A stretch of 22,986 bases of DNA from a virus, in the IMG/VR virus record IMGVR_UViG_3300043444_000162, positions 1-22,986 of that record; one strand, written 5' to 3'. Position numbers and translations under genes: made by a program. Positions 431-19,991 of this stretch are shown here, in pieces (positions within the stretch are counted from its first letter, which is position 1; each line of letters starts with the position of its first letter). The notes beneath the pieces are model-generated. The model did no database searches. It was given only the letters and a program-made list of their open reading frames with translations, and was not told the origin of the DNA.

Positions 431-1852
431 TTATGCTTTATCATTAGTGAATCTACTAACAATTAAACTGAATATTGTTGGTATGATTAGACACCCGAAA
501 AATCCCATCAGTGCGATGTCATTAATTTTATTCAATGATGCATAAGCGTAAATTGGAAATCCAACAAACAGAGAGATTAAGATTCCAGTTACCATGGCTT
601 TAGCATTCTGTAACTGCGGTTTCACTAACGCAATGATTGATGGCACGATAAATGTCATACAGATACAACCAGTCAAGAAACCGAAGTAGAGAATGTTAAC
701 ACCTGGGATGTTAACTAATACCCATGCCAATAGAACAACGCCAACTACACCGAATCTACTGTAGTCAATTAACTTTGATTCTTGTAGATTTTTACTGAAC
801 TGTGGAACGATGTCGTTACTAATTAAAGTAGTTACGCTTGTGATTTGACTATCAATGATAGAAGTCAGAGCAGTCAACAACATAAACACAACAAGCATCA
901 ATGCCCATGGATCTAACATCTGAGCAATTACCGCTACGTTAGTGAGCTGCAAGTTTGCTGGGGTTATACCCATACCAGCTGCAACAAAACCAAGAGTCGC
1001 GAACATAGCTGGAGCGATAAAGAAAATCGCAGCTGCCAACGCATAAGTCACACGAATCTTACTTGGGTTAATAACAAACGCACGTTGCCAGAAGCTGTTA
1101 TCTGCCCATGGTAAACTGAAGTGACGGAACAAGAAGTAGATACCAGTTGACCAGAAAAACGCAAGTGCTTCTGCCGATGCGAATAGGTCACCATACTTAC
1201 CATTGGCTCCTGTCATACCTTTTTGAATCACATCCCAACCAGCGATTGACCAAACCTGAGGAACAATGATTAACGCAGTACCAACCACGACAATCATCTT
1301 AAAGATCTCAGTGATGTTGGTAGAACGAAGTCCTCTGAAGATTGAGAATAATACAGCTGAAACAATCAAGAATGCTGCTGCCAGATTCATATCTAATCCA
1401 CTTAGAGATTGAATCAACTTACTACCAGCATAAATGTTCAAACTTAACGCAACGATTGCGATAAGAATAAACGCTAAGTTGTATGTGTTGTGAGCAACGC
1501 TACCATAATTTAATTTGATATGCTCAGAGAATGTAAACCCAGTTGGATACATCTCACGAATCTTATGCGCAGCAAATCCGAACAAGAATAGTGTCAATGT
1601 GTTCATCACTAGAATCCAAAAGAACCCTGTGAATCCAAACTGATAACTTAATTGTGGTGCCAAGAACAGAGCAGTTGCCCATGTCCATGCTGCCGAGATA
1701 CTAAAGGCACCTCTGATTGTTTCGAACTTACGATTAGCCAATAAGAATGACTCTTTGGTTTTATCCAAAGTTCCACTAAACAACCAAATGAAACCACTAC
1801 ACAGTATAAAGTATACTGCCATTAATCCTGTAATAGAACTCAAGTCTAACAT
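431..1852 (-). CDS. Sodium:solute symporter (SSS) family, DUR3-like
   Basis: A 473-residue, strongly hydrophobic inner-membrane protein with about 12-13 membrane segments, the usual size for the SSS family (LeuT fold, Na+ or H+ coupled uptake). Three stretches recall the urea/polyamine DUR3 branch: SAAWTWATALFLAPQLSYQF (53-72), FRGLRST (172-178, the family's GGLRA-type motif) and ADNSFWQRAF (250-259). The substrate cannot be read from sequence; urea, a polyamine or another small organic solute are possible. It starts 3 bp after the stop of 1856-2539, so it is translated with the oxygenase and antioxidant genes upstream. A complete solute carrier is unusual in a tailed phage and was presumably taken from a host. 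The family call is confident; the substrate is not. Confidence 0.85.
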   Translation of the reverse strand: MLDLSSITGLMAVYFILCSGFIWLFSGTLDKTKESFLLANRKFETIRGAFSISAAWTWATALFLAPQLSYQFGFTGFFWILVMNTLTLFLFGFAAHKIREMYPTGFTFSEHIKLNYGSVAHNTYNLAFILIAIVALSLNIYAGSKLIQSLSGLDMNLAAAFLIVSAVLFSIFRGLRSTNITEIFKMIVVVGTALIIVPQVWSIAGWDVIQKGMTGANGKYGDLFASAEALAFFWSTGIYFLFRHFSLPWADNSFWQRAFVINPSKIRVTYALAAAIFFIAPAMFATLGFVAAGMGITPANLQLTNVAVIAQMLDPWALMLVVFMLLTALTSIIDSQITSVTTLISNDIVPQFSKNLQESKLIDYSRFGVVGVVLLAWVLVNIPGVNILYFGFLTGCICMTFIVPSIIALVKPQLQNAKAMVTGILISLFVGFPIYAYASLNKINDIALMGFFGCLIIPTIFSLIVSRFTNDKA

Positions 1853-1855
1853 ATT

Positions 1856-2539
1856 TTATTCCCTATCAATTTTCTCGCCAGTTACGACGAGGATATAATT
1901 AGTATGATATCCAACATTGGAAGTATAATGCGGAATACTTTGATGCTCCCATGTAAAAGTATCACCCTTCTTCCAATTTATAGAAGTTGTGCCGAAGCTA
2001 AAATTCTGACCAAGTTGCTGGTCAGTTAAAAACGTAATGAAAATGTCATGCGCATGTTGATCACGAACTTTCTCATAAACAACTTCTTCATCTAGAGTCC
2101 ACTTTTGATAACGCTGACGATCCATATGAACAACAAAGTATTGTCCTGGCTTTTCAATTTGAATTCTGGTAGAGACAGTTTCTGGTTTTAATTTATAAAA
2201 CTCAGCAAACTTTTTATTGATTTCTTCGGTGTGTTCACCGAAGTTAGTTGTATAGCTGTGACCATGACCAGACATTAAATCTGCATACTCAAGCAACCAT
2301 GTTCTAAAATCATTCTCACTAACATCACCATTTGTGCTAGCTGCTGTTCTTGCGATGTAATCTTTATTGAAGAACACGTTCTCGAACTTGGTTGGAATTG
2401 AACCATCATCTATTCCAGAAACTACTGAATCAAAATGATCACCAAGAACATCAGATACGTTTTCTAGTTTATAAACTCTTTTATCCCAGTCCCAATTTCT
2501 AACCTGATTTTTTAATTGATAATCCACCCATTGTTTCAT
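1856..2539 (-). CDS. Putative double-stranded beta-helix oxygenase-like protein
   Basis: A 227-residue soluble protein. The C-terminal half has the rhythm of a cupin/2OG-Fe(II) oxygenase barrel: HMD at 138-140 would be the HxD iron motif, a KGDTF turn follows (191-195), and HQSIPHYTSNVGYHTNYILV (199-218) carries candidate distal histidines (199, 204, 212) followed by a hydrophobic strand. I do not see the Arg usually placed about ten residues after the distal His, so 2OG dependence is uncertain. It resembles phage proteins labelled aspartyl/asparaginyl hydroxylase-like. It lies 17 bp after a clearer 2OG oxygenase and 3 bp before the symporter. The substrate is unknown; a metal-independent cupin is an alternative. 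Confidence 0.6.
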   Translation of the reverse strand: MKQWVDYQLKNQVRNWDWDKRVYKLENVSDVLGDHFDSVVSGIDDGSIPTKFENVFFNKDYIARTAASTNGDVSENDFRTWLLEYADLMSGHGHSYTTNFGEHTEEINKKFAEFYKLKPETVSTRIQIEKPGQYFVVHMDRQRYQKWTLDEEVVYEKVRDQHAHDIFITFLTDQQLGQNFSFGTTSINWKKGDTFTWEHQSIPHYTSNVGYHTNYILVVTGEKIDRE

Positions 2540-2556
2540 ACTATTCTCCAGATTTA

Positions 2557-3132
2557 TTATTTTTGCGAGTAAATGTTTGTCGCCAAACTAATTCTAGTTT
2601 GTTCGCTTCTATTTATCTCGACCATATGCATAACATATGCTGGAAATAATATCAATTTTCCTTCTTCTGGAACTACTCGTTTATACTTTATACCAGATAC
2701 GTTACCTTCTCGTAACCATTCCCAATTAACTCCACCTCTTGGATCCACCATAAGTAAATCACCACAATTCTTTGGAGATTTTATATAATATGAACATGCT
2801 AATAATGTTCCACCATGATCATGCAACGCTAATGATTGACCAGGAGATTGACGATTAACCCAACCTCTTGTTAATGTTGGAACAAATTTAAAAAATGGTG
2901 GAAAATATTCAGAAGCATTTTGAATTGCTGAAGATAAAATCTTTTCCTTTAACGCAGTTATACATGGTGTTTTATAGTCCCATATATTGAATGCGTATGG
3001 ATTAGACGGAGGGACACATTTGGAAATTTCAACTAATAATTCATTATTGAAATTCGAATCAAACCCTGTCTGAATTTCCCAGACAGGGGTTACCCACCAC
3101 TCATGTTTAGTGACAGTCACTGAATTATCCAT
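2557..3132 (-). CDS. 2OG-Fe(II) oxygenase superfamily protein
   Basis: A 191-residue soluble protein with the layout of phage-type 2OG-Fe(II) oxygenases (TIGR02466-like). The proximal iron site is HDH at 104-106, followed by CSYYIKSP and DLLMVDPRGG. The distal His169 is followed by Arg180 and Ser182 (HMVEINRSEQTRISL), matching the canonical distal His then RxS motif that holds 2-oxoglutarate. The expected reaction is O2- and 2OG-dependent hydroxylation; the substrate (protein, nucleotide or small molecule) is unknown. The start overlaps the end of ahpD by 8 nt, placing it in the ahpC-aldolase-ahpD operon. Such enzymes are frequent in T4-like marine phages. Confidence 0.8.
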   Translation of the reverse strand: MDNSVTVTKHEWWVTPVWEIQTGFDSNFNNELLVEISKCVPPSNPYAFNIWDYKTPCITALKEKILSSAIQNASEYFPPFFKFVPTLTRGWVNRQSPGQSLALHDHGGTLLACSYYIKSPKNCGDLLMVDPRGGVNWEWLREGNVSGIKYKRVVPEEGKLILFPAYVMHMVEINRSEQTRISLATNIYSQK

Positions 3133-3631
3133 TTAAAACTTTTGCAACACTGTTCATTACTGCAGCAATGCGACCAATGTCACGTAGTTGCTCAACAGTG
3201 TATCCTTCTTTCTTCAAAGTCTCGTAGTGTGCCTTCACGCAGAAGTGACACTTGCCAACGATACTTGCAGCAAGAGAGAATGCTTCAAAGTTTGCCTTTG
3301 TAGTTCCACCATGAGATGCAATCGCATTCATGCGTAACTGTGCAGGTAGCCCAGCCAATGAAGGATCGTCTGCCATCTCGACATACGGATACCATACGTT
3401 GTTCTGTGCCATAATACTTGCAGCAGTCATAGCTGAGTCAGCAAACATTGGAGCATCTGCCAACATCACTGATAGAACTTTACCGTTACCAGTTGCAGCC
3501 AATGCAGCTACGGCACAACCCATAGCAACATCGGCATCTAATGTGCTACGCAAAAGAATAGCGTCAAGATTTAACTTGGTGTCCTTTGCGTAGTCTGGCA
3601 ACGCTTCTTTAATTGTTTCGTTAAAACTCAT
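3125..3631 (-). CDS. ahpD: Alkyl hydroperoxide reductase AhpD-like
   Basis: A 168-residue protein of the all-helical AhpD/CMD family, close in length to mycobacterial AhpD. The active site is intact: CHFCVKAHYETL gives Cys128, Cys131 and His135, and Glu116 lies 12 residues before Cys128, the same spacing as Glu118/Cys130/Cys133/His137 in the M. tuberculosis enzyme. AhpD is a thiol reductase that re-reduces AhpC, linking peroxide removal to lipoamide and NADH. The AhpC partner is encoded 636 bp upstream in the same operon, separated only by the aldolase. The gene starts 1 bp after the aldolase stop. A paired AhpC/AhpD system is not standard phage equipment and implies protection against peroxide during infection. 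Confidence 0.88.
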   Translation of the reverse strand: MSFNETIKEALPDYAKDTKLNLDAILLRSTLDADVAMGCAVAALAATGNGKVLSVMLADAPMFADSAMTAASIMAQNNVWYPYVEMADDPSLAGLPAQLRMNAIASHGGTTKANFEAFSLAASIVGKCHFCVKAHYETLKKEGYTVEQLRDIGRIAAVMNSVAKVLNG

Positions 3632-3632
3632 T

Positions 3633-4268
3633 TTAGTATTTTCCTGATGATAGTACGATTTGACAAATATGTTCTAATCGTTCAATATGTTCGAATGCTC
3701 TCCATGGGCTAGTATCAATAGCAACTACCCCATGACCTTTGATGCCTACGATATCGTAGGCGACATTACCCTCAGAATCTAACTCCAACTTTTCAAAACA
3801 TTGGTCTGCCAACTCTTGACTTATTGGAGGAACATCACCGACATTCGGTGCTACTTTAGTATAACGACTTAATTCTGGGAAATCGTTGGCTAAACTGCCT
3901 AACTCGATACCACGATGCATAGCAGCAACACAGTAAGTAGGATGAAAGTGCATAACTACACGAACATCATTACTATGTTGCCCCATTCTTTTTTGAAGAC
4001 CAAAGTGTAGTGGAATCTCACCACTTGGTTTTAACATGGCACTAATATCTGTATAAGGTAAGTCTACCCAATTCCATCGTTCAACTGGCTGAAACATTAT
4101 ACCAATCTTTTTAAATTGGTCTGGTTGCATTGTTTGCTTACGAACACCACTTGGTGTGATGTAAAAGTGATCACGATCGTGGTGTCTGATACTCACATTA
4201 CCGTCACGACTAGTAATCCAGTTGCGACGGTATGCTTCAACCATCGTATCGCAGATGGTTTCTAACAT
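3633..4268 (-). CDS. Class II aldolase/adducin family protein
   Basis: A 211-residue protein with the zinc aldolase/epimerase fold. Visible signatures are SRDGNVSIR (20-28), YITPSGVRK (37-44), SGEIPLHF (82-89, catalytic Glu84), VVMHFHPTY (104-112, zinc His107 and His109) and GIKGHGVVAID (175-185, third zinc ligand His179). Relatives include L-fuculose-phosphate aldolase, ribulose-phosphate 4-epimerase and methylthioribulose-phosphate dehydratase; I cannot choose among them. Its ATG overlaps the ahpC stop codon by one base (TAATG), so it is translationally coupled between ahpC and ahpD. Its link to the peroxide genes is unclear; it may act on a sugar phosphate or a methionine-salvage intermediate. 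Confidence 0.85.
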   Translation of the reverse strand: MLETICDTMVEAYRRNWITSRDGNVSIRHHDRDHFYITPSGVRKQTMQPDQFKKIGIMFQPVERWNWVDLPYTDISAMLKPSGEIPLHFGLQKRMGQHSNDVRVVMHFHPTYCVAAMHRGIELGSLANDFPELSRYTKVAPNVGDVPPISQELADQCFEKLELDSEGNVAYDIVGIKGHGVVAIDTSPWRAFEHIERLEHICQIVLSSGKY

Positions 4269-4810
4269 TATAGAGTATCTCCACCAACAGTGCGGTTACA
4301 TGCACATAACTCACCAGTCTGAAGTGCGTCAAGAATACGCAAAGTTTCTTCAGGTGAACGACCCACGTTTAAATTGTTAACAGTAACATGCTGAATAACA
4401 TTATCTGGATCAACGATAAATGTCGCACGAAGTGCAGCACCAGCTGGCGCATAGAACACACCAAGTTGCTCAATTAAAGATTTGTCCCAGTCACGTGATG
4501 TATCTGCGAACTGAATGTGTTTGATTTTTTGTAGATCGCTATGGGCTTTCTGCCATGCCACTTTACAGAACTCATTGTCTGTGCTACCAGTCAATAGAAC
4601 TGCGTCACGATCTGCGAAGTCTTGGAACAACTTATCATACGCTACGATTTCAGTAGGACATACGAATGTAAAGTCTTTAGGGTAGTAGACAATAACTTTC
4701 CACTTACCTTCAAATGATTTCTCTGTAATATCGAAGAATGCATCTTCTGGTTGTCCTGGACGAACACCAGTTACTACGAATGATTCTAATTTGTCTCCAA
4801 CTGTTTTCAT
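4268..4810 (-). CDS. ahpC: Peroxiredoxin AhpC
   Basis: A 180-residue 2-Cys peroxiredoxin. The peroxidatic Cys51 sits in FTFVCPTE (47-54) with Thr48, the C-terminal resolving region is ELCACNRT (Cys169 and Cys171), and Arg128 is in the expected position. The ELCAC ending is like mycobacterial AhpC, the form that works with AhpD rather than AhpF, which agrees with the ahpD gene downstream. It reduces H2O2, alkyl hydroperoxides and peroxynitrite in the cytoplasm. It is the first gene of its operon: a near-consensus promoter lies at 4838-4866 and AGGAAA precedes the ATG by several bases. Full length with no missing catalytic residue, so probably active. Confidence 0.93.
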   Translation of the reverse strand: MKTVGDKLESFVVTGVRPGQPEDAFFDITEKSFEGKWKVIVYYPKDFTFVCPTEIVAYDKLFQDFADRDAVLLTGSTDNEFCKVAWQKAHSDLQKIKHIQFADTSRDWDKSLIEQLGVFYAPAGAALRATFIVDPDNVIQHVTVNNLNVGRSPEETLRILDALQTGELCACNRTVGGDTL

Positions 4811-10226: not shown

Positions 10227-10382
10227 TTATTCTTTATCTTTAACTTTTGCTAATTTAGCACGAGACTCAGAACACTCAGCGTCAATCATCATACGCTTGT
10301 ATGAGTTTCTAAATTCTTGTGGCATTAATGCAAGAACACGTTTAGTACTCTTACTCAATCTAAAATTCTTATCAGTTTTCAT
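10227..10382 (-). CDS. Small conserved phage protein
   Basis: A 51-residue protein (MKTDKNFRLSKSTKRVLALM at the start; YKRMMIDAECSES in the middle). It matches a class of tiny T4-like phage proteins with an FRLSxxTKRxLA start and a KRMMIDAE helix. The function is unknown. Its ATG overlaps the end of the phosphatase gene by 11 nt and its stop codon touches the -35 box of the downstream promoter. Confidence 0.68.
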   Translation of the reverse strand: MKTDKNFRLSKSTKRVLALMPQEFRNSYKRMMIDAECSESRAKLAKVKDKE

Positions 10383-10794
10383 ATGTCAATCCAAGTTCTT
10401 TCATTAGTTTATGTTTAACACGTAGGTTGGGTTGGCGATATCGATCGGTTGCAGTAAATCCAACCATAGTAGCTACCTCAACTACAGCACCACTACGACA
10501 AATTCCAGCATGGCAGTGAACAATTACGTTCATACTATGTGCCAGAGCTTTATTTAGTAGTTGCACAATTTGAGTTGCTTGTTCATCGCTAATCATAGCT
10601 TCTTCTGGGAATGCATCACCATCTTCTGCATCAAGAAACTCAAAACAGTGCACTTCTTTGTAAGTTCTTTTTGTTGGACAGAACTCAGTAGCTGGATCCT
10701 GAATACGAATGAGCATGACATTTTCTCCTAGGTCGCTGTGGAACCCGAGATGAATATCACTCATACTTACATTTTCAATCCAACGAATCATCAA
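10372..10794 (-). CDS. Dual-specificity / tyrosine phosphatase-like protein
   Basis: A 140-residue protein with the cysteine-phosphatase signature HC-x5-R: VHCHAGICRSG at 92-102, nucleophile Cys94 and Arg100, followed by the Ser101 expected after Arg. The WPD-loop Asp may be Asp57 or Asp60, in LDAEDGDAF. Length and motif fit a compact dual-specificity phosphatase. Similar genes occur in T4-like marine phages. The substrate is unknown: host phosphoproteins, or a small phosphorylated molecule. The start overlaps the end of the MazG-like gene by 20 nt. Confidence 0.82.
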   Translation of the reverse strand: MMIRWIENVSMSDIHLGFHSDLGENVMLIRIQDPATEFCPTKRTYKEVHCFEFLDAEDGDAFPEEAMISDEQATQIVQLLNKALAHSMNVIVHCHAGICRSGAVVEVATMVGFTATDRYRQPNLRVKHKLMKELGLTYEN

Positions 10795-11050
10795 TACTAC
10801 TCCATGTTTTCAATTTAAGTTTCTTTGCACCTGCTGCAAGAGAAACAATACCCCAATCAATCAACCCACGTTCTGACATCATTTGTAACATACACATCAG
10901 GTCGCCGATTTCTTCTTCAAGTCTTTCTTTGTTAGTTCGTTCATTGTGGACAGCATCCATACCGAAACGAAAAACTTTACTAATTGCCTGCGTAACTTCT
11001 GCACATTCTTCTTGTGCGATCAACATAATTTCACGTTCACTACTATTCAT
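10775..11050 (-). CDS. MazG-like nucleotide pyrophosphohydrolase
   Basis: A 91-residue all-alpha protein with the MazG metal motif: QEECAEV (Glu14, Glu15, Glu18) and EEEIGDL (Glu47, Asp50), the EExxE...ExxD pattern that binds Mg2+ and cleaves nucleoside triphosphates to monophosphates. Phage MazG homologues have been proposed to alter host nucleotide or ppGpp pools; the substrate here is not determined. The length is that of a single MazG domain. It starts at the stop of the HTH-like gene (TAATG-type overlap) and overlaps the phosphatase downstream. Confidence 0.82.
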   Translation of the reverse strand: MNSSEREIMLIAQEECAEVTQAISKVFRFGMDAVHNERTNKERLEEEIGDLMCMLQMMSERGLIDWGIVSLAAGAKKLKLKTWSSIDDSLD

Positions 11051-11496: not shown

Positions 11497-11751
11497 TTAT
11501 TTGTTATATATGTAATATACGGTATGTAACAAGTCTAAGAACCCCCACACAAAACAAAATGTAAGAAAACTTAACAGAATCATTGCAAGAAACAATTCTG
11601 TTCCGTCAAGCTCATACCAGTTCTTTACTTGCTTGTTGCGTGATAAACTCCGTTCCAGTTCGGAGGAAGTCCCTCTTCCATTCTTTGCAACATTAGTTGG
11701 TAGTACTGGTTTAGTTCTGGTGTTTTCTTTTTCGAAATTAAATCCTGACAT
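11497..11751 (-). CDS. Possible small membrane protein overlapping the cyclase 3' end
   Basis: An 84-residue frame starting MSGFNFEKEN, with a polar N-terminal half (Arg/Ser/Lys-rich) and one hydrophobic segment at the C-terminus (LFLAMILLSFLTFCFVWGFL). The first 127 nt overlap the end of the cyclase gene in another frame; the remaining 128 nt lie in the gap before the terminator and would otherwise be empty. GAAGAAAT precedes the ATG. A shorter version from an internal Met would be 28 residues and lie outside the cyclase. I do not recognise it; it may be a real overlapping gene or an open-frame accident. Confidence 0.42.
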   Translation of the reverse strand: MSGFNFEKENTRTKPVLPTNVAKNGRGTSSELERSLSRNKQVKNWYELDGTELFLAMILLSFLTFCFVWGFLDLLHTVYYIYNK

Positions 11752-13640
11752 AATTTCTTCGCCCTCGTCCAATCGCCAGAGTAATAAGCATCTAGATACA
11801 TTTGATGTAGATAGTCTACCTTTGCGATTGCGTAAATGTGAAGTCCAATTGTTTTACCTTTTACTGCGATACAATCAAGTTGTGCTACATCATAAACATG
11901 TTTCACTCGCTCTGCTGTTTCTGGACCAATTACCAACAGAACTCCATAACCTTTTGTTTGTCCCTCAAGACGTGCTGCAGTTGAAACGCTATCACCAAGT
12001 ACGTCATAACCATAACGATCGTTGGCACCAATGTTACCGATTAATGTTGGACCAGTGTTCACACCAGCACCCATACCTACTGGTGGACGACCTTCTGCTT
12101 GAAGTTCTTTATTGAACTCTTCAATTGCATCAATCATTTCAAGAGCAGTCTTAACTGCAGTAATTGCGTGTTCATTATCATCAACAGGTGCGTTGTGAAC
12201 ATGTAACGAAGCATCACCGATAAACTTAATTATACATCCACCATTTTTAATAACTGGTTTTGATAATGCATCCATATAACGATTCATAACTGCAGTTAAA
12301 CCTTGTACGTCAGCACCGAAAGATTCACCAAGTGTAGTGAAGCCACGAAGATCTGTCATGACAATAGACAAATCACGCTTTTCACCTTTTAATCTTTCTG
12401 CTGCTCCTTCAGGATCTTCTGCCAATTGATTAACAATGACGGGAGATACGTATCCTCCAAACTGTTTTTTGATTTGCAATTTCGCACGCAGCTCGACAAG
12501 GAATTTGACAACGTATCCATGGAAGCTGCAGACGCCAATGGTAAGAATCGGGAACACAGCATCAAGTAGATAAGCTGATCGAACAAAGAGTTGGAAACCA
12601 CCCCAATAGGTGACGAATCCCAAAGCGATCGCAAAGATGTATCCATGTTTATACCTTGTTAAGTAGATTGAAATAATCACTGATACAATCATAAACAAAA
12701 GTTCTGCTGGCATTGCCCAGAACGGACGACTGATATTTGTTCCTGATACTACAGTTTCTAATACCGCAGCCTGTAAGTAATGAGGATAAACTGCTCCGAC
12801 TGATGTAGCGACAGGATTGTTAAGACCCTTTGCGGTAAGACCAACGATGACGATTCCACCATCGAAGCTCTTGGGTAATTTTGATGCAGAATGCTCGATT
12901 GGGTTTGACGACCAATCAACCCAAACTCTACCGAGTTCGTCTGTTGTGATTTTTCCAAATTTAGGAATTCGTACTGCTTCGATGTTTCCTTCTGATACTT
13001 TAATTTGGAAGGATGGATCTCCAGATGCGACTCGCAATGTTTCAAGACCAATGCTTGGATACAAGTTTCCGTTGGCTTGAACAACCATTGGTACTCGTCT
13101 TGTGACGCCATCGATTTCTGGGAGGGTATTAACAATGCCAATACCAGCAGCACTATTATTAAACTCTTTAATATTAGGTTCAATATTTCCATAATTCACA
13201 CCTGCGTTTTCACCACCGATCACCGAAACACCTGGACGAAATGGCGGATAATTATTTTTAATGTTATCAGTAGTTGCGGTATGTGGAAGAACTACTGGAA
13301 CTTCCTTCATTAAATTACTTAACTGAACATCTTGACCAAAACGATCACGCTCAGGCATATAGATGTTAAAGACAACCAACCCAGCACCAGCATTATACAA
13401 ATTACTAATGAGTTCGGCATATTGTCCACGAGGGAACGGGAACTGTCCTTTTTCTCGAATATAGGCATCGTCAATGTTTACGACATGCACCTGTTGAGAT
13501 GTTGTCGCACCTTTACTTGTTATTAGTTGATCGAAATAACGAAGTCTGACAGACTCAATGAATGATGGGTCTGCCATTCTCAATAAGATTAAAAACACTA
13601 GAGTTACTAGTGCTGTCCATGGACTAAGAAGTTTTTTCAT
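11625..13640 (-). CDS. CHASE2-domain class III adenylate/guanylate cyclase
   Basis: A 671-residue membrane signalling enzyme. Order: N-terminal membrane anchor (about 8-22), extracytoplasmic CHASE2 sensor domain (about 30-300, with VHVVNIDDAYI, FPFPRGQYAELI and GGIVIVGLTA), three membrane segments (about 310-380), a short linker (GGYVSPVIV), class III cyclase domain (about 420-605) and a C-terminal helical tail. Catalytic residues seen: metal Asp430 (TDLRGFT) and Asp476 (IKFIGDA), purine-site Lys472 and Asp546 (YDVLGD), transition-state Arg557 (AARLE). The transition-state Asn of the usual GDxVNxA motif is replaced by Ser553 (GDSVSTA), so activity may be reduced or altered. It would make cAMP or cGMP in response to a periplasmic signal. 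It overlaps the preceding gene by 17 nt. CHASE2 cyclases next to FecR proteins occur in bacteria; in a phage this is unusual. Confidence 0.9.
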   Translation of the reverse strand: MKKLLSPWTALVTLVFLILLRMADPSFIESVRLRYFDQLITSKGATTSQQVHVVNIDDAYIREKGQFPFPRGQYAELISNLYNAGAGLVVFNIYMPERDRFGQDVQLSNLMKEVPVVLPHTATTDNIKNNYPPFRPGVSVIGGENAGVNYGNIEPNIKEFNNSAAGIGIVNTLPEIDGVTRRVPMVVQANGNLYPSIGLETLRVASGDPSFQIKVSEGNIEAVRIPKFGKITTDELGRVWVDWSSNPIEHSASKLPKSFDGGIVIVGLTAKGLNNPVATSVGAVYPHYLQAAVLETVVSGTNISRPFWAMPAELLFMIVSVIISIYLTRYKHGYIFAIALGFVTYWGGFQLFVRSAYLLDAVFPILTIGVCSFHGYVVKFLVELRAKLQIKKQFGGYVSPVIVNQLAEDPEGAAERLKGEKRDLSIVMTDLRGFTTLGESFGADVQGLTAVMNRYMDALSKPVIKNGGCIIKFIGDASLHVHNAPVDDNEHAITAVKTALEMIDAIEEFNKELQAEGRPPVGMGAGVNTGPTLIGNIGANDRYGYDVLGDSVSTAARLEGQTKGYGVLLVIGPETAERVKHVYDVAQLDCIAVKGKTIGLHIYAIAKVDYLHQMYLDAYYSGDWTRAKKLCQDLISKKKTPELNQYYQLMLQRMEEGLPPNWNGVYHATSK

Positions 13641-14259
13641 ACATCACCGTATTAGTATCGCCGAGTGCCCACTTTGATTCGTTTTCAACTGACCATCTTT
13701 TTGTAGCTACTTTGAAGTCTGGCATCTTTAGTTCTTTTGGATTGCTGCTTGGCTCTAAAATAATAAGACGATTATTAGGCTGAGCAGCATACTGACCATT
13801 GTCGCACTGAATAAAGTTATAAGACTTATGGTCTTCGATATCTTCACTAAATCCAGTATCAAGAATATTAAAATCAGGAGAAGCAGAATCCACAGTAAAG
13901 AGATAAGTACCATACATCCACTCTCCATTTTTAAGTTTAAATTTACAACGCATTGATTGTAGTTGTGCTTTCTTAATAACAGTTATATCATAAGAAAGAC
14001 AATCCCATAGTTGAAGATAATCTAATGGTAATGGTTCACCTTTGATCGGTTTCCAACAATAGGCATGTAGAGGTAACTTATCATATAATGCACCGTATTG
14101 ATTTAGATATGATTCAATACGAAATGCCTGACCACGTAATGACTTTATACTTATCCACCAACATGGTTCTAATTCACCATGTCCTTTCTCGAAGTCGTAG
14201 AGAAATTCTCTACGAACAAAACATTTTACTGCTGGTAAATTTGCAACTATATGCGACAT
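13624..14259 (-). CDS. Conserved hypothetical phage protein
   Basis: A 211-residue soluble protein of unknown function that I recognise as a recurrent type in T4-like marine phages: NLPAVKCFVRREFLYDFEKG (7-26), then GELEPCWWISIKSLRGQAFR, YGALYDKLPLHAYCW (55-69), YLQLWDCLSYDI (81-92) and a C-terminal YAAQPNNRLIILE. The many aromatic residues and alternating pattern suggest a beta-rich fold. It starts at the stop of the small gene upstream (1-nt overlap) and runs 17 nt into the cyclase. Because homologues exist in phages without curli genes (from memory), it is probably phage backbone rather than part of the curli-like cassette. Confidence 0.75.
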   Translation of the reverse strand: MSHIVANLPAVKCFVRREFLYDFEKGHGELEPCWWISIKSLRGQAFRIESYLNQYGALYDKLPLHAYCWKPIKGEPLPLDYLQLWDCLSYDITVIKKAQLQSMRCKFKLKNGEWMYGTYLFTVDSASPDFNILDTGFSEDIEDHKSYNFIQCDNGQYAAQPNNRLIILEPSSNPKELKMPDFKVATKRWSVENESKWALGDTNTVMYEKTS

Positions 14260-14498
14260 TAGATAGCACTGGCTAAAATTTGCGCCATTTGAACGATGTA
14301 TCTGCAGGCTACTTCATCATTAGCCAATTCTTGTTGTGCTCTAATGTCTGCAATTTCAGTAACTAGGAATTGATATTCTTCATCAGTCAATTCACCAGTG
14401 GATCTTTTATCTGTTAAAACTAATAACTCATTTGCTAACTGTGCAGCTGAACCACCAAGACCAGCCTGCTCTCTTAAACTTTCCAGATATTCGTTCAT
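14259..14498 (-). CDS. Small helical phage protein
   Basis: A 79-residue helical protein: GLGGSAAQLANELLVL (12-27), TGELTDEEYQFLVTEIADI (about 34-52) and LANDEVACRYIVQMAQIL (about 56-73). The middle segment looks like the short helix-hairpin (SHOCT-like) used for oligomerisation. I chose the ATG at 14496-14498 because it overlaps the lipoprotein stop codon as ATGA and has GAGG just before it; the alternative ATG four codons upstream lacks these. The function is unknown. Similar proteins appear in marine T4-like phages next to the lipoprotein and the 211-residue gene. Confidence 0.68.
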   Translation of the reverse strand: MNEYLESLREQAGLGGSAAQLANELLVLTDKRSTGELTDEEYQFLVTEIADIRAQQELANDEVACRYIVQMAQILASAI

Positions 14499-14836
14499 CT
14501 TCCTCTCCATGCATCAGCAATTACATTAATACGAGTCTTGTTTATTTTAATAACAGATTCGCAAAATGATTTGTTGTTAGAATTTTTAGCTTTCACTACT
14601 GCTTCTTGTAGCTTACCTATCGCATCAGCCTGTGGGTCTTTACGTAGAGAAGCGTATACCTTTAATCTTTCAATTTTATATTCAGCATCTGTCCAATTTT
14701 TGTCATCGCAATTTAATTTATCAACTGCGATTTTAACTTCTACTAAGTTATTAAACATTGATGAGTCATGTGGTCTTGGTAAAATAAAAGAACAACCACT
14801 AAGTGTTACGAATAAAAGTGCTGCGATAATTTTCAT
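14495..14836 (-). CDS. Small lipoprotein
   Basis: A 113-residue protein with a lipoprotein signal: a hydrophobic start, then LSGC with lipidated Cys15. The mature part is polar and helical, with motifs I recall from phage lipoproteins (PRPHDSSMFNNLV, SLRKDPQADAIGKLQEAV and RINVIADAWRGR), and two further Cys (about 43 and 97) that could pair. The location is the outer or inner membrane facing the periplasm. A role in lysis (outer-membrane spanin component), surface change or superinfection exclusion is possible; none is shown. It sits 5 bp after the FecR gene and is coupled to the next gene by ATGA. Confidence 0.75.
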   Translation of the reverse strand: MKIIAALLFVTLSGCSFILPRPHDSSMFNNLVEVKIAVDKLNCDDKNWTDAEYKIERLKVYASLRKDPQADAIGKLQEAVVKAKNSNNKSFCESVIKINKTRINVIADAWRGR

Positions 14837-14841
14837 ATTAC

Positions 14842-15936
14842 CTACTTTTGTATTATGTTAATAGTAGTACTACCACCCTTATTGACCTGTTGATATGCAA
14901 CAGATCCATCCTGATTTATATTTATTGTCTTATCAGATTCTTTATCAATTGTTATTTGTGCTACATGACTACTTATTCGATATAAAACTAGCTTATCATT
15001 ATCATCAATGCCATATTTCAACCCAGACGCTTCGCTATATCCAGGAAGCATGGTTTTCTGTTCTAGCATAGATTCCTGACTAGCAGCCAACGCTTTATTA
15101 CTTTCATCTAATAAATTTGTCAGTAAATCTACATCTAACAAATTAATATCTAGAGAATTAAACTTTAGATTATCCTCATCTAATTTTGAATACTTCAACA
15201 GATCTTTATCTAAAAAGTTTACGTCTAATGCTGTCTTTGTTTCTGACTTATATTTCTCATCATCTATTTCTTTTGGTGGAGAAACGATAAGCATATTATT
15301 GATATTTGCTTGATCAATTGAAATTATAACTGGTTTTGATGGTGGTTGATTTCTATCAGCCACGAATGTTGTTTGGTATGCAGTGTCCATATATACGGAG
15401 CCACTGTCAGTAGATACCTCAATGGCACCTGTCACACATGCTTTATTATCACATGATGGTAATAACATAATCAATGAACGACCTAATTCATCAACAGTCA
15501 TAGAAAAGTCTGTTCCTCGCACAGCAACTGTTGCTGTTGGAGTTTTAATATCTACCGATTGGGGATTCGTTTTTGCGATCTGACCACTAGCGTAACGAGC
15601 AGTGCCCATTACAACTTTCATAGCAAGTTTACCAGAACCTTTTTTCGGATCATACACGAAGTCATCTATCACGAGTTTTGATTGCTCTGTGATATTGACT
15701 GTCGTGTTATCCTCAAAAGTTAGTTTGGCTTTAGCCTTTGCTGTAACAACAGTATCATTCATCTCAACTCCAGTTCCTATTTTACTAGGGATGGAGTTTT
15801 TATTTCTTACTATTTCAGTTGGACCAGTTTGCTCAGAAACTTTACCTACTGCTGCAAAATTAGTTTGACTGATTAATAGTAATATTGTTAGAGTTGCCAG
15901 TTGAATTAACTGTGATGCTCTGTGGTAATGTGCCAC
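14842..15936 (-). CDS. FecR-domain secreted protein with curlin-like C-terminal tail
   Basis: A 364-residue protein with a signal peptide (about 1-28, ending TNFA). The FecR domain spans about 30-200; its hallmark is KTPTATVAVRGTDFSM (131-146). No anti-sigma N-terminal domain or membrane anchor is present, so this is not a classical FecR sigma regulator but a free periplasmic or exported form. Next come a repetitive Leu/Asp segment with LD pairs every 7-12 residues (about 237-280) and a tail at about 323-363 containing QITIDKESDK, ININ-Q-DG and STTINIIQ, which has the alternating I/N/Q pattern of curlin repeats. The start lies 77 nt inside the curlin gene; no other Met gives a signal peptide. 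It could be a curli-type co-substrate, nucleator or regulator. Confidence 0.82.
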   Translation of the reverse strand: MAHYHRASQLIQLATLTILLLISQTNFAAVGKVSEQTGPTEIVRNKNSIPSKIGTGVEMNDTVVTAKAKAKLTFEDNTTVNITEQSKLVIDDFVYDPKKGSGKLAMKVVMGTARYASGQIAKTNPQSVDIKTPTATVAVRGTDFSMTVDELGRSLIMLLPSCDNKACVTGAIEVSTDSGSVYMDTAYQTTFVADRNQPPSKPVIISIDQANINNMLIVSPPKEIDDEKYKSETKTALDVNFLDKDLLKYSKLDEDNLKFNSLDINLLDVDLLTNLLDESNKALAASQESMLEQKTMLPGYSEASGLKYGIDDNDKLVLYRISSHVAQITIDKESDKTININQDGSVAYQQVNKGGSTTINIIQK

Positions 15937-16483
15937 TCTGTGTCACTCCAATATTATTTGTGTCGCCAGTAGCTGTAATAATAGCACTTGTAACTCCAGT
16001 ATTAGTTGAAGTATGAGTAATAGTATTTGTACTACCAGTTACATTAATCTCACTATAATGATTCGCACCAGCACCAAGGTTCTGGGTTATAATGTTATCA
16101 TCGCCTGATACAACTTGTTTAATAGTAGAACCAGAGCAACCAGCAGTTGATGTAGTTCCGCAGTCGATAGTTTGAATATTACCACTACCTGTTGTGTCTA
16201 CGATTACGCTAGCAGAAGCACCATTGACGACCATGGCCAATTCATTATTACTTCCAATTTGATCAATGGTAACAGTATTAGATCCACCACCAATAAAAAC
16301 TGGTGTTAAAGAATCACCCACTTTATTGCCACTACCATCTTGAGTAATACTGATAGTTGATGAGTCACCAACCTGTTCTACATAAATTTCATTAGCATAA
16401 ACAAAGGATGAAGCTGTCACGCATAACAAAGCAGTGAGTACTTTTCTCGACAACCCACGAACGTCTGTCTTACTTGTTTTCAT
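15860..16483 (-). CDS. Curlin-repeat protein (CsgA/CsgB-like amyloid candidate)
   Basis: A 207-residue exported protein: signal peptide 1-30 (ending FVYA), then a Ser/Thr/Asn/Gly/Gln-rich mature part made of degenerate curlin-type repeats, such as IYVEQVGDSSTISITQDGSG, NTVTIDQIGSNN, STIKQVVSGDDNIITQN, NNIGVTQSG and NNITINQS. The alternating I-x-I-x-Q pattern with GN/GS turns is that of the CsgA/CsgB beta-solenoid, though the repeats are less regular than in E. coli CsgA. Two Cys (108 and 116) may form a small loop. It lies directly after csgG (14-nt overlap), with an AAGGAAAT ribosome site for the ATG at 16481-16483; a longer N-terminus is not needed. It is the expected substrate of the CsgG/CsgF pore. 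Subunit or nucleator cannot be told apart. Confidence 0.82.
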   Translation of the reverse strand: MKTSKTDVRGLSRKVLTALLCVTASSFVYANEIYVEQVGDSSTISITQDGSGNKVGDSLTPVFIGGGSNTVTIDQIGSNNELAMVVNGASASVIVDTTGSGNIQTIDCGTTSTAGCSGSTIKQVVSGDDNIITQNLGAGANHYSEINVTGSTNTITHTSTNTGVTSAIITATGDTNNIGVTQSGTLPQSITVNSTGNSNNITINQSN

Positions 16484-17279
16484 CTTCTTTGATTTCCTTG
16501 TTTGGTTTTGGTTTAAATTTCCAAATACCTTTCTTTTCTCCTTCAATAATCATTTCATAAACAGCCTGTTCAATTGCTACACGAACAGCGTAAGTAGTTG
16601 GTTCATTCAATGCTGTTCCACTTTCAAGTTCTAAAGACTTAGTACCTTGATCTACAAATTTGAACACACCTACTGTATGAGCAGTACTATAAATTGTTTT
16701 AGATACTGCTGTACTTAACAAAATCTCTCCGCTACTCACACTTACCAAGCGTAGAGATATAACAACTTCATCGACACGATATTGCTCACTGCCACCGATA
16801 CCTAAAAATCTGGCACCATTACCACCAGATCGTATATTACTATCATAACCAATAATCCCACCTTCAACCATAACACCTGCAACAGTTAATGGTTTAAGTG
16901 GTTTGGCATCTTTTCCTTCGTATACTTCTCTTTGGTTTCTAATTAACTGTCGTTCTTTAACTAAGTTATCAAGACCAACACGTTCAACTACCTTAAACCA
17001 ATTCTTACTATCTTGTAGTGATTTAATTAAAAATGTTTCACCACCCTGTGTAACTGCTTTACTAAACAAAGCCATCTTTTCACTTGGTTTATTTTGTCCA
17101 GTTTTATCAGCAAATCCATAAACAGCGATGGCAATTTTTGGACCATCTAGTTCTGGTAGTTTCTCAATGACACTTTCACGTGGTGTTAATTTAACTGGTT
17201 CTTCTTGTGAGAAGTTCATGCGCATGTTTGCGCATCCAGTCAAAACTAACACCAACAATAATGAGATTGATAACTTCAT
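16470..17279 (-). CDS. csgG: Curli secretion pore CsgG
   Basis: A 269-residue lipoprotein with lipobox LTGC (Cys16). It matches E. coli CsgG along its length: AVYGFADKTGQNKPS (52-66), VERVGLDNLVKERQLIRNQR, LTVAGVMVEGGIIGYDSN (131-148), SGGNGARFLGIGGSEQY (151-167), RLVSVSSGEIL (177-187), SKTIYS (193-198) and GVFKFVD (204-210). CsgG forms a nonameric outer-membrane pore that exports curlin subunits. The constriction loop differs: the Phe56 equivalent is kept (Phe72 in ALFSKAV) but Asn55 aligns with Leu and Tyr51 is not conserved. The start overlaps the stop of the beta-barrel gene by one base (TAATG). The C-terminal tail is Lys/Glu-rich and shorter than in E. coli. csgF is upstream; csgE is not seen in this window. 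Confidence 0.93.
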   Translation of the reverse strand: MKLSISLLLVLVLTGCANMRMNFSQEEPVKLTPRESVIEKLPELDGPKIAIAVYGFADKTGQNKPSEKMALFSKAVTQGGETFLIKSLQDSKNWFKVVERVGLDNLVKERQLIRNQREVYEGKDAKPLKPLTVAGVMVEGGIIGYDSNIRSGGNGARFLGIGGSEQYRVDEVVISLRLVSVSSGEILLSTAVSKTIYSTAHTVGVFKFVDQGTKSLELESGTALNEPTTYAVRVAIEQAVYEMIIEGEKKGIWKFKPKPNKEIKEDENK

Positions 17280-19297
17280 TAGAATTTAACTTTTACATTT
17301 AACCCAAGAGTGTTGCTTGTTGTTGAATTTAACCAACTCTTCCCAGCATAAACGTAATAAGTCACATCGCCATCTGCTTTAGAAAGAATTAGGTTTGCTT
17401 CAGTTATTCCGTTTGATGTTTTAGCAACTTCAGTTAAAACTTTTCCACCCAATACGTCTGCTGAATATTGAACACCATATTCTCCGATAGTTTGAGTATT
17501 TGAGTTTCCGATAATAGTTTGAGCTGACTGAATGCTACCAGCTTCAACCTTAGTTGGAGTTGAGTTGTTTAAAATAGTGGCACCAACGAATGGTCTAAAT
17601 CCATAAACTTCTGGAGAAAGAACCTTAGTGCTCAACCATGTTGATTGTGATGCGTTAGAATAACTGTTTGAGAATGGACCGATAGTTCTGCTATAATTAT
17701 TTTTAATGTTAGTATGCCCAACATCATTCTGAACAGTAATTCCTTCTTCTGAATTGTAATCAGCAAAAGCACCGAAGTGGTAACCATCTAAACTAGCACC
17801 AGTAGTATCAAGACCAGTTAGCTTACCATTGATTTTATTAATCTGACCACCAACAATCAAGTTTTTATCAATGTCAGTTTCATATGAAAGACCAACGACA
17901 GAAGTGTTTGCAGAATAACCATTCTGCCCATTGAATTTAGTGCCAGTAACATTTATTGCAATTCTACCTTTATCATCGGCAACACCATTTCTAGCATTCT
18001 GACGATTTAAGTTTCTGTATAAACCAGTCTTGATTATATCAAACTGTTCAGCCTGATCAGCACGACCAGAGAAACTATCATTGGCGACGCTAGTATCAAC
18101 TACGTTAAACAATTCAGTAGTAGTTGTAGTTGAACCACGTGTAGTAGTTGTAGTAGAATCACTATAAGATGTTGTTGTGATAGGAGTAGTTGCTGTTGTT
18201 CTAATCCATGGTGTTGTCACATTTGTAGTAGTTGTTCTAGCGATAGTCTGAAGACCAGAAGATTTACTAGCTTCATGGTGAGCAAGAGAACCAGTAATAA
18301 CTGGTAATGAAGAATCAACTGCAGTTGATACTAATACTTCATTAGTAACTGATGTGCCAGTGATAGTTGGAGATGCTGGCGCAGAAGCAGCCGATGTTGC
18401 TGAACCAATATCTGTTAAAGTTCCACTGAAAGAACTTGTTCCTGCTGTACCACCACCCGCACCACCATCAATCGCAGTAGAAGCAGAAGCAAACGCAGAT
18501 GGTCCGAAGATATAAGCGTAACGATAAGTTACGATATCGCCAATTGCTAAACTGCTTGATAGGAAAGAAATACCGATTGTGTAGTCGCCACGAACTACAT
18601 CATGACCACTCGTATTATCGTAGTAGTCTTGTGGGTTGCTTGACCACATAGGACTTATACTAGTATTCGAGCCAGTAGCCTGAGTTGTGTATAAACCAAG
18701 AGCATATCTTGAAGTTAATGCTTCAGAGAATACCACATTCTGTCTTGGAATAACACCATAGCCACGCACGTTGTCAGTAGAAGAACTATCTCCTGTTGCT
18801 GCACGAGCATCTGGGTCAATGAAACGAGCAAAGTATAATTGATCCATCGCAATCTTAGCTTCGATTCTTGTTGCGATGTCTAGATATTGTTTACCAGAAC
18901 CTAAAGCATAGGTATGTTGTAAATCAAAATTAGAATGATTGACTGCCCAAACAGCAGATGAAGAAGTTGGAGTTCCAACCCACGCACCACCTGGCACTTG
19001 AGTAACATATGCGTTGTTATTGTGATAGTTTGTTCCAACACCACCATTAACGATACGAACTGCCCATCCTTCAAATGGAGAACCAGGAGTTAGATAATCG
19101 TAAGATGTATTGAATGTTCCAGTTCCTGTTGAATCGTATAACAATCCAGGAGAAGTATTACCACCAGAACCTAAAGTTCCTGTAGTGGCATTAACACCAG
19201 CTTTAACGTATTCGTTTACTAGAATTACGTTTTGTGCCATTGTTGCAGTAGATAATAATGTAGCTACAACGGAAGCAATAAATTTCTTCTTAAACAT
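17279..19297 (-). CDS. Large secreted protein with C-terminal outer-membrane beta-barrel
   Basis: A 672-residue exported protein: signal peptide 1-21 (TATMA|QN), an aromatic and Gly/Ser-rich beta domain (about 22-270), a Gly/Ala/Ser linker (about 275-310), a Thr-rich low-complexity tract (about 354-394), then a region from about 440 to 672 with amphipathic strands ending NTLGLNVKVKF. A terminal Phe is the usual BamA-recognised outer-membrane barrel signature, and the whole has an autotransporter-like passenger-plus-barrel layout. I cannot identify the family. The Thr tract may be a flexible or modified surface linker. It lies between csgF and csgG with a 9-bp gap and a one-base overlap, so it is translated with the pore. 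It may be a surface adhesin, an exclusion factor or a co-factor of the curli-like assembly. Confidence 0.75.
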   Translation of the reverse strand: MFKKKFIASVVATLLSTATMAQNVILVNEYVKAGVNATTGTLGSGGNTSPGLLYDSTGTGTFNTSYDYLTPGSPFEGWAVRIVNGGVGTNYHNNNAYVTQVPGGAWVGTPTSSSAVWAVNHSNFDLQHTYALGSGKQYLDIATRIEAKIAMDQLYFARFIDPDARAATGDSSSTDNVRGYGVIPRQNVVFSEALTSRYALGLYTTQATGSNTSISPMWSSNPQDYYDNTSGHDVVRGDYTIGISFLSSSLAIGDIVTYRYAYIFGPSAFASASTAIDGGAGGGTAGTSSFSGTLTDIGSATSAASAPASPTITGTSVTNEVLVSTAVDSSLPVITGSLAHHEASKSSGLQTIARTTTTNVTTPWIRTTATTPITTTSYSDSTTTTTRGSTTTTTELFNVVDTSVANDSFSGRADQAEQFDIIKTGLYRNLNRQNARNGVADDKGRIAINVTGTKFNGQNGYSANTSVVGLSYETDIDKNLIVGGQINKINGKLTGLDTTGASLDGYHFGAFADYNSEEGITVQNDVGHTNIKNNYSRTIGPFSNSYSNASQSTWLSTKVLSPEVYGFRPFVGATILNNSTPTKVEAGSIQSAQTIIGNSNTQTIGEYGVQYSADVLGGKVLTEVAKTSNGITEANLILSKADGDVTYYVYAGKSWLNSTTSNTLGLNVKVKF

Positions 19298-19306
19298 AGT
19301 CTTTCC

Positions 19307-19753
19307 TTAAAATGCAAAACTAGCTATGGGTACAGTGATATCAGTTCTATTACCATTGGTCTCAATAATAGTAAGAGTCACATCTGTGCCAGTTTTCACC
19401 CAAGAAATATTAGTTCCTTGAAAATCCATTGTTCCTGACGTCGCACCAGCATCAGCAAACATTGCGTCTGCCAATTGTTTTGAAAGCTGTGCGTATATAC
19501 GAGATTCAACGTTGACCAAAAACTTCGCTAAGTTTGTATTCTTAGCATCACGTTCTGCTTTATCGGCTGATGCCTTAGCTTCGTCTTTTAGTTTTTGTTT
19601 TCTTTGTGCTTCTAACTGTTCGATAGTTAGAATGTGTGATGAATAGCCTATACCCGAAAATGCAGGACTATTAAATTGATGCACGAGTTCCGCAGCATAG
19701 ATATTACTTGCTATCAGACTCGCTATTAGAAGACTTCTCTTTAGAAATGTCAT
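19307..19753 (-). CDS. csgF: Curli assembly factor CsgF
   Basis: A 148-residue exported protein. The signal peptide is 1-20 (MTFLKRSLLIASLIASNIYA). The mature N-terminus ELVHQFNSPAFSGIG (22-36) matches the E. coli CsgF segment TFQFRNPNFGG that inserts into the CsgG pore. Then comes a Lys/Ala/Glu-rich helix (about 45-75), longer and more charged than the E. coli neck, and a C-terminal head with FLVNVESRIYAQLSKQLADA and TLTIIETNGNRTDITVPI, matching the CsgF NVTDRKTGQTSTIQV strands. It anchors and nucleates curli fibres at the pore. I chose the ATG at 19751-19753 because it gives a clean signal peptide; an upstream in-frame Met adds a polar basic extension. It overlaps the upstream membrane gene by 50 nt. 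Confidence 0.85.
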   Translation of the reverse strand: MTFLKRSLLIASLIASNIYAAELVHQFNSPAFSGIGYSSHILTIEQLEAQRKQKLKDEAKASADKAERDAKNTNLAKFLVNVESRIYAQLSKQLADAMFADAGATSGTMDFQGTNISWVKTGTDVTLTIIETNGNRTDITVPIASFAF

Positions 19754-19991
19754 CGTTTTCTTTTTGATTGCGTAACGACAAAATGACATTCACTTTCTGG
19801 TTCAAACGGATAAGGTCGTTATCCAACATTCTAATTCGATCAATAAGATCGACCAGAACTTTACTAGCTTCACTTGTTACTGGTTTAATTTCAGTAGTTA
19901 CCCACTGCCAAACATAGTAAATGAAGTATCCCAACCCAAACGCTGCTACTATTGGGAAACCGAATTTGTTAATTAATGCTGCTATATCCAT
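19704..19991 (-). CDS. Small membrane protein, paralogue 2 (holin-like layout)
   Basis: A 95-residue protein with one membrane segment near the N-terminus (KFGFPIVAAFGLGYFIYYVW, about 9-28), then a helical region with MLDNDLIRLNQKVNVIL (about 54-70) and a charged Lys/Asp/Ser tail. It is similar to the protein at 20048-20323: both have a xxGFPIxAAxxxGYF membrane motif followed by an NxDxIRxxxKV helix. This layout (one TM, amphipathic helix, charged tail) fits pinholin/BhlA-like or small scaffold proteins, but the family is not established. I chose the ATG at 19989-19991; a GTG two codons upstream is possible. The 3' end overlaps csgF. Confidence 0.7.
   Translation of the reverse strand: MDIAALINKFGFPIVAAFGLGYFIYYVWQWVTTEIKPVTSEASKVLVDLIDRIRMLDNDLIRLNQKVNVILSLRNQKENDDISKEKSSNSESDSK

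Follow-up and report, generated by a model that had tools for sequence, protein, structure and literature searches.

The stretch of viral DNA analysed here (22,986 bases; the window) encodes an intact receptor-type class III cyclase that ends a curli/FecR operon and whose catalytic domain, judged from trees and alignments, is one of two modules that phages have repeatedly exchanged under the same sensor. In the window's version, which we call the S-type, a serine stands in place of the usual transition-state asparagine. Our preferred reading, to which we give as a whole a probability of about 0.62, is that this receptor cyclase with its exchangeable S-type module is active, uses ATP, responds to the envelope and directs its product at the host. 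An earlier note on the same DNA had pointed to the cyclase as a phage-encoded second-messenger source, and made no mention of the altered, exchangeable catalytic domain or of Ser553.

An intact CHASE2 receptor cyclase in a T4-type phage

The cyclase gene (P0001 in the ORF list) is an uninterrupted frame on the minus strand that starts at 13640 and ends at 11625 (Table 1). The earlier note's description of a complete 671-residue gene is borne out by the frame and by both of its domains, the strand being minus. The Guanylate_cyc match (PF00211) scores 65.4 bits against a curated cut-off of 21.9, and the CHASE2 match likewise lies far above its cut-off. The layout is that of CHASE2 receptor cyclases, with an N-terminal helix, CHASE2, three helices and an output domain. 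Of membrane helices the earlier note had counted three; three do follow CHASE2, but another precedes it, giving four in total. An AlphaFold2 model built from a 22-sequence alignment (mean pLDDT 86.6, pTM 0.58) predicts that all parts are folded, that the last membrane helix extends towards the catalytic domain as far as residue 394, and that the protein ends in a three-helix tail, helical at residues 610-655. The solved structures closest to the catalytic domain are 6fht, 2w01 (Cya2), 3r5g (CyaB) and 1wc1 (CyaC), and the catalytic part of the predicted model matches CyaB, CyaC and Cya2 with Foldseek TMt values of 0.82-0.88.

Each of the best 80 IMG/VR relatives gives a single uninterrupted tblastn segment, and the lone broken copy among those examined is L085, in a bin labelled 'Flavobacteriaceae'. 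The gene is thus intact in these related phages, whereas the earlier note had named a gene broken in most of them as a refuting result. A chance ORF was rejected on the strength of the Pfam matches, dN/dS and the 80 unbroken relatives, and a decayed gene because one broken copy alone was seen.

The window belongs to a T4-type phage, with genes for T4 RNase H, a SegE-like GIY-YIG endonuclease and NrdB. It is distant from cultured relatives, its gp32-region protein being about 30% identical to those of phages such as BUCT-ZZ01, phiN3/phiM12, Cr30 and Moby, and the 22,986-base record is probably a fragment. In the window the T4 late promoter TATAAATA has zero matches, Rfam gives none, and sigma-70-like promoters are as numerous as in shuffled sequence. 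Among the other genes, a minus-strand set at 431-4810 (sodium:solute symporter, PF00474; 2OG-Fe(II) oxygenase-like; AhpD/CMD-like; class II aldolase; AhpC peroxiredoxin) is unusual for a phage, and adjoining dual-specificity-phosphatase-like and MazG-like genes lie downstream of the cyclase at 10372-11050.

Table 1. Features of the curli/FecR/cyclase cluster in the window, with the evidence for each
Feature	Position	Strand	Evidence
CsgF	19307..19789	-	PF10614, E 1e-15
Presumed outer-membrane barrel of 672 aa, encoded between csgF and csgG	17279..19297	-	no Pfam match
CsgG, curli outer-membrane pore	16470..17279	-	PF03783, E 4e-56; 51% identical to HTVC008M CsgG
Curlin-repeat (CsgA/B-like) protein	15860..16546	-	PF07012, E 1.5e-7; weak NCBIfam CsgA/CsgB matches
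FecR-domain protein, N-terminal signal-like stretch	14842..15936	-	PF04773, E 3e-11; phrog_37870, E 2e-96
113-aa lipoprotein-like protein, LSGC motif	14495..14836	-	sequence; weak phrog_1754 match; homologues in L008, L009, L011, L012, L019
83-aa protein, no family	14259..14510	-	homologues beside or near the cyclase in L008-L012, L019
211-aa gene between the 83-aa gene and the cyclase	13624..14259	-	phrog_3704, E 3e-81, labelled 'ferredoxin' there
CHASE2-class III cyclase gene, 671 aa	11625..13640	-	ORF; Pfam; phrog_35576, E 8e-245; AlphaFold2 model
First membrane helix, residues 7-23, before CHASE2	about 13572-13622	-	hydropathy; model
CHASE2 domain, residues 13-324	12669..13604	-	Pfam PF05226, E 3e-37; hydropathy; model
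Three more membrane helices, residues 309-327, 334-355, 362-about 382	12495..12716	-	hydropathy; AlphaFold2 model
Class III cyclase catalytic domain, residues 421-597, S-type module	11850..12380	-	PF00211, E 7e-18; structure matches
His480 and His482, diagnostic of S-type	12195..12203	-	the other phage class, like almost every cellular homologue sampled, has Ala/Trp
Asp546, second base-specifying residue	12003..12005	-	Thr in the other phage class
Ser553 for the transition-state Asn	11982..11984	-	sequence alignment

The cyclase ends a phage curli cluster

A phage type VIII secretion (T8SS, curli) cluster ends with the cyclase. Its genes share the minus strand, each touching or overlapping the next, and run in the order CsgF, an outer-membrane-protein-like gene, CsgG, curlin, FecR, three small genes and the cyclase. 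All components of a phage T8SS-FecR-cyclase cluster (CsgF, CsgG, curlin, FecR and cyclase) are therefore present. No CsgE, CsgC or CsgD was identified with Pfam among the window's cluster genes, and pelagiphage clusters are likewise without them (PMC9599517). As read from its genes, the cluster is a putative functional curli secretion system. The C-terminal part of the 672-residue protein shares 27-29% identity with proteins from Synechococcus phages DSL-LC02/LC03, one of them annotated as an autotransporter barrel; the gene also occurs in a minority of relatives (L008, L009, L017, L020-L022) and is absent in HTVC008M and Melnitz. This protein may be carried as an additional surface passenger, or may partner the curli pore in the outer membrane. 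By eye, the C-terminal end of the FecR protein (14842-15936) resembles curlin repeats (ININQDG...QQVNKGG...INIIQ). The 211-residue gene, which overlaps the cyclase start by 17 bases, immediately precedes the cyclase in L052 and L056 as in the window, lies elsewhere in L002 and is missing at that place in L008 and L009, a variable placement suggesting that it moves in and out of the operon. CsgG was also seen in a 1.5-kb 'Salmonella phage' record (OR851715.1), where it is probably host DNA.

The earlier note had treated the CHASE2 cyclase and FecR as a pair that travelled together, and had asked for FecR linkage elsewhere. We sampled IMG/VR loci by DNA pattern, independently of the best 80 relatives and requiring at least 3.5 kb of upstream sequence. 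Among the matches listed, FecR lies within 8 kb of the cyclase in 70 of 77 phage loci, and curlin, CsgG and CsgF were found in 72, 65 and 57 of the 77, respectively, so that the linkage is indeed present in phages. In the best 80 relatives the cyclase adjoins FecR-curli genes wherever the DNA suffices, with few exceptions (for example L053 and L077). In four loci (L049, L054, L055 and L067) the cyclase is on the opposite strand and faces the FecR-curli genes; the unit is thus not always one operon. Linkage has also been published in bacteria. S. meliloti cyaD1 (SMc02176) lies near the FecR-domain gene SMc02177, adjacent by locus number (PMC5498481), and PMC9239204 describes CHASE2-cyclase genes clustered with FecR genes in Campylobacterota. 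However, the scanned neighbours of four near cellular homologues with flanks (L088, L093, L100 and L102) contained no Pfam FecR match, so the linkage is not general and a donor is not shown by it. The pairing consequently holds for phages and for the published bacterial cases, while the idea that the pair travelled as such gives way to a larger curli (T8SS) cluster of which both genes are part. Phage-type curli/FecR/cyclase clusters or cyclases were also seen in MAGs (L084 and L098 in Rhodobacteraceae Water_Bin34, L087 in a Pirellulales bin, L085 and L086 in Flavobacteriaceae bins); these are probably phage contigs binned with bacteria.

Two catalytic classes and an altered active site

In alignments of the matches listed, the phage homologues fall mainly into two classes without intermediates. 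The canonical phage class reads KYIGDAQMAFW...YTCLGDxVNLASR, with Thr546 and the transition-state Asn553, while the window's class reads KFIGDASLHVH...YDVLGDSVSTAAR and has Ser553 in place of that Asn. We take position 553 to correspond to Asn1025 of mammalian IIC2. The window's cyclase keeps both metal-binding residues of class III enzymes, Asp430 and Asp476, and has the ATP-specifying Lys472 with Asp546, but in place of the usual transition-state Asn-Arg pair it has Ser553 with Arg557. Class III enzymes that use ATP classically combine Lys with Asp, and Lys with Thr is found in ATP-using enzymes too. The earlier note's 'cAMP/cGMP source' can accordingly be narrowed, as the base-setting residues point to ATP and not GTP, and a guanylate cyclase is not favoured.

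To delimit the classes, two IMG/VR pattern scans, with the 'HxH' and 'AFW' stretches, together covered at least 237 loci. At nine key positions at least 113 fully covered sequences read DKDHHDSRK and at least 108 read DKDAWTNRK; among the matches listed, partly covered sequences agree with one class or the other at their visible catalytic positions, with one deviating at the last position. Mixed active sites occurred in 0 of the at least 237 loci. Because positions 546 and 553 lie outside the search patterns, their perfect linkage to 480 and 482 is a result of the scans. The cyclase of isolate HTVC008M is of a third type (Lys/Ser/Asn), near cellular domains, and the isolates thus differ, HTVC008M having Asn and Melnitz being S-type.

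The loss of the transition-state Asn in all S-type sequences among the matches listed, together with two further changes adjoining the second metal ligand (His480 and His482), could mean that the S-type is a pseudo-enzyme, which would bind ATP and dimerise, barely turn over, and serve as a sensor or dominant-negative partner. Asn and Arg are reported to be essential for catalysis by mammalian cyclase (Yan et al. 1997, as cited in PMC4215837). Yet Mycobacterium avium Ma1120 has Ala at the Asn position and is active, and restoring the Asn drastically lowers its activity (PMC4215837); given this Ala-Arg exception, the label 'canonical cyclase' falls for the S-type and class III membership stays. 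Moreover, both metal Asp residues, Lys472, Arg557 and Lys594 are unchanged in all fully covered S-type sequences, and Ser553 is strictly conserved in every S-type sequence, among the matches listed; its codons are TCN in 22 cases and AGY in 4. Between the window and L001 and L002 the catalytic domain has a dN of about 0.02 at a dS of 0.43-0.48, whereas CHASE2 has a dN of 0.10-0.17 and so evolves faster. By these rates the S-type catalytic domain is under strong purifying selection, against what a pseudo-enzyme would suggest. The presence of one cyclase per phage checked also leaves no phage-encoded active partner for it to inhibit. We therefore consider a pseudo-enzyme unlikely, and favour an active ATP-using S-type cyclase with altered catalysis.

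Exchange of catalytic modules under one sensor

In an alignment of 75 sequences the Ser/Asn state changes 12 times on the tree of CHASE2 (residues 1-330), at least 10 of these changes being forced by well supported branches, and once on the cyclase-domain tree. Enlarging the set to 201 sequences (FastTree) gives 29 changes on the CHASE2 tree, of which at least 16 are forced, against one on that of the cyclase domain. The class also changes 24 times on the FecR tree, 21 times on that of CsgG and 17 times on that of CsgF. The clearest example is the window and L008. Their DNA agrees at 89.9% of positions across 8.1 kb on the upstream side and at 91.3% across 2.2 kb on the downstream side, with 92% protein identity in CHASE2 and 87-98% in the other cluster proteins. 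Their catalytic domains, in contrast, are 55% identical as protein and about 60% as DNA (50-67% over most of it). Identity breaks between residues 391 and 411, which places the left junction of the exchange near the conserved linker there, and does not recover before the stop. Between L037 and L052 it is back after residue 600, indicating that both single-module and module-plus-tail exchanges occur. L004 (10001-12013) and L048 (5136-7154) have a CHASE2 dN of 0.001 and a C-terminal tail dN of 0.27; the tail is, by this comparison, a third exchangeable module. Overall these sequence comparisons indicate that the catalytic module is repeatedly exchanged among phages by recombination under the same sensor.

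Shuffling is not confined to the catalytic module. The class changes 15 times on the tree of residues 601 onward (the tail) and 26 times on that of residues 301-400, which includes linker, and L004 and L048 differ mainly in the tail, all of which would fit two functionally equivalent alleles caught in a background of high recombination. Neutral crossovers inside the domain should, however, produce mixed sites, and their absence from the at least 237 loci argues against free neutral exchange; we regard equivalent alleles as an unlikely account. The repeated exchange of two fixed active sites suggests instead that they are non-equivalent, and the base-contacting position 546 differs between the classes. 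The S-type might then make another product, with swaps changing the message, matching host receptors or dodging cyclic-nucleotide-sensing defences. This we find quite improbable, as Lys472/Asp546 is the classical ATP pair and Lys/Thr also occurs in ATP users, the best PADLOC PycC match (E 3e-16) does not exceed that to cyclases in general, and the scan showed no Pycsar effector. Finally, most of the sequences are metagenomic contigs, but an assembly artefact is scarcely credible: L008 and L009, one virus recovered in two separate assemblies, agree at 99.99% over 12 kb, which argues against chimeras; exchange partners have since diverged by a dS of 0.4-0.5 on both sides; isolates differ in type too, Melnitz having the S-type and HTVC008M an Asn; and 29 changes are spread across 201 sequences.

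Origin of the S-type module

The earlier note had proposed a phylogeny to find the donor. We searched samples of 385 and 398 genomes (about 780 Pseudomonadota) with an S-type profile. The best 58 cellular matches without exception carry Asn553 and Ala480, with Ser or Thr at position 546, and score 180-227 bits compared with 383-393 for phage-type loci. No cellular donor of the S-type was found among these genomes, and none in 84,980 species genomes screened with two sequence patterns outside the active site, which returned 25 loci. The S-type loci in bacterial bins (L084, L087 and L098) sit in phage-type curli clusters and are taken for phage contigs. In a tree that also holds 67 cellular domains, the S-type and canonical modules of phages group together to the exclusion of these (support 99), so that the phylogeny sets the phage modules apart, shows no donor and suggests that the S-type probably arose among phages. 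The S-type is probably derived from the canonical phage module, although long branches and incomplete sampling leave room for an unsampled donor.

Proposed mechanism and output

We propose that CHASE2, from the periplasm, controls a homodimer of the catalytic domain in the cytoplasm, which it would restrain or trigger in response to the envelope, FecR or the curli machinery; candidate signals are curli assembly, FecR and the osmotic state of the envelope. Consistent with a controlling sensor, deletion of CHASE2 makes S. meliloti CyaD1 produce cAMP constitutively (PMC5498481). The FecR protein there is not required for signal perception (PMC5498481), so FecR and cyclase need not act together. 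Ser553 would work because the neighbouring site is remodelled, with His480 and His482 on the strand after metal ligand Asp476. From Lys472 and Asp546, the product would be cAMP. Twelve related phage records, most possibly fragments, contain exactly one cyclase each and no cNMP-binding domain (PF00027), and the product therefore presumably acts on the host, where cAMP receptors would be its targets. The phage would probably gain by retuning transcription or the surface of the cell it infects after its curli system has been installed. A Pycsar defence system was rejected, as PADLOC PycC matches only through the shared cyclase domain and the scanned neighbours have no defence matches.

Phages might swap modules to obtain a different output or to escape a host countermeasure, or the exchange might be neutral. 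We tentatively suggest, at somewhat less than even odds, that the two modules are non-equivalent and interchangeable, that they are swapped as a unit to alter the strength or kind of the second messenger, and that the S-type was born among phages with a remodelled site (His480, His482, Asp546 and Ser553).

Comparison with known systems

The pelagiphage T8SS with FecR and adenylate cyclase was published in 2022, including its inter-family transfer and probable alphaproteobacterial origin (PMC9599517), and phage CsgF/CsgG are treated in PMC7029224 and PMC9004378. Given this cluster and the bacterial CHASE2-FecR pairs, the finding as worded in the earlier note is largely known. HTVC008M (NC_020484) and Melnitz (MZ577098) have the order CsgF, CsgG, curlin, FecR, a second curlin-position gene and cyclase, with CsgF, CsgG, curlin, FecR and cyclase following one another as in the window, and their cyclases are 35% and 38% identical, respectively, to the window's. 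Compared with the pelagiphages, the window represents another T4-type group and adds the 672-residue barrel-like gene and the three small genes before the cyclase. The text of PMC9599517 does not treat the active site, catalytic residues, two classes or module exchange, and we found no earlier report of two modules or their exchange in the open-access literature.

The S. meliloti system CyaD1-SMc02177(FecR)-Clr resembles the window in placing a CHASE2 receptor cyclase, which makes cAMP, near a FecR-domain protein; it differs in being bacterial, in having no curli genes described and in encoding the receptor Clr nearby, whereas the phage records are without a cNMP receptor (PMC5498481). Campylobacterota similarly have a CHASE2 cyclase whose gene is grouped with that of an outer membrane protein with a FecR domain (PMC9239204), but that cluster includes a cAMP phosphodiesterase and a TPR protein, and the passages on it do not mention curli genes. 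Ma1120 (PMC4215837; PDB 4wp3) is like the S-type in its natural replacement of the Asn with the base-specifying Lys and Asp kept; it differs in having Ala instead of Ser, and the sequence match is marginal (E 7e-4).

The new element is thus the pair of exchangeable catalytic modules, one with a non-canonical active site whose catalytic meaning is predicted. While the cyclase and FecR of phage curli clusters were known and their function unexplained, the swapped modules turn this into a testable question, namely how the outputs differ and why the phages change modules. The S-type would also be a natural test of whether the 'essential' transition-state Asn of class III cyclases is dispensable once the residues around it have changed too, and cultured phages exist for both sides of the comparison, Melnitz with the S-type and HTVC008M with an Asn-type enzyme.
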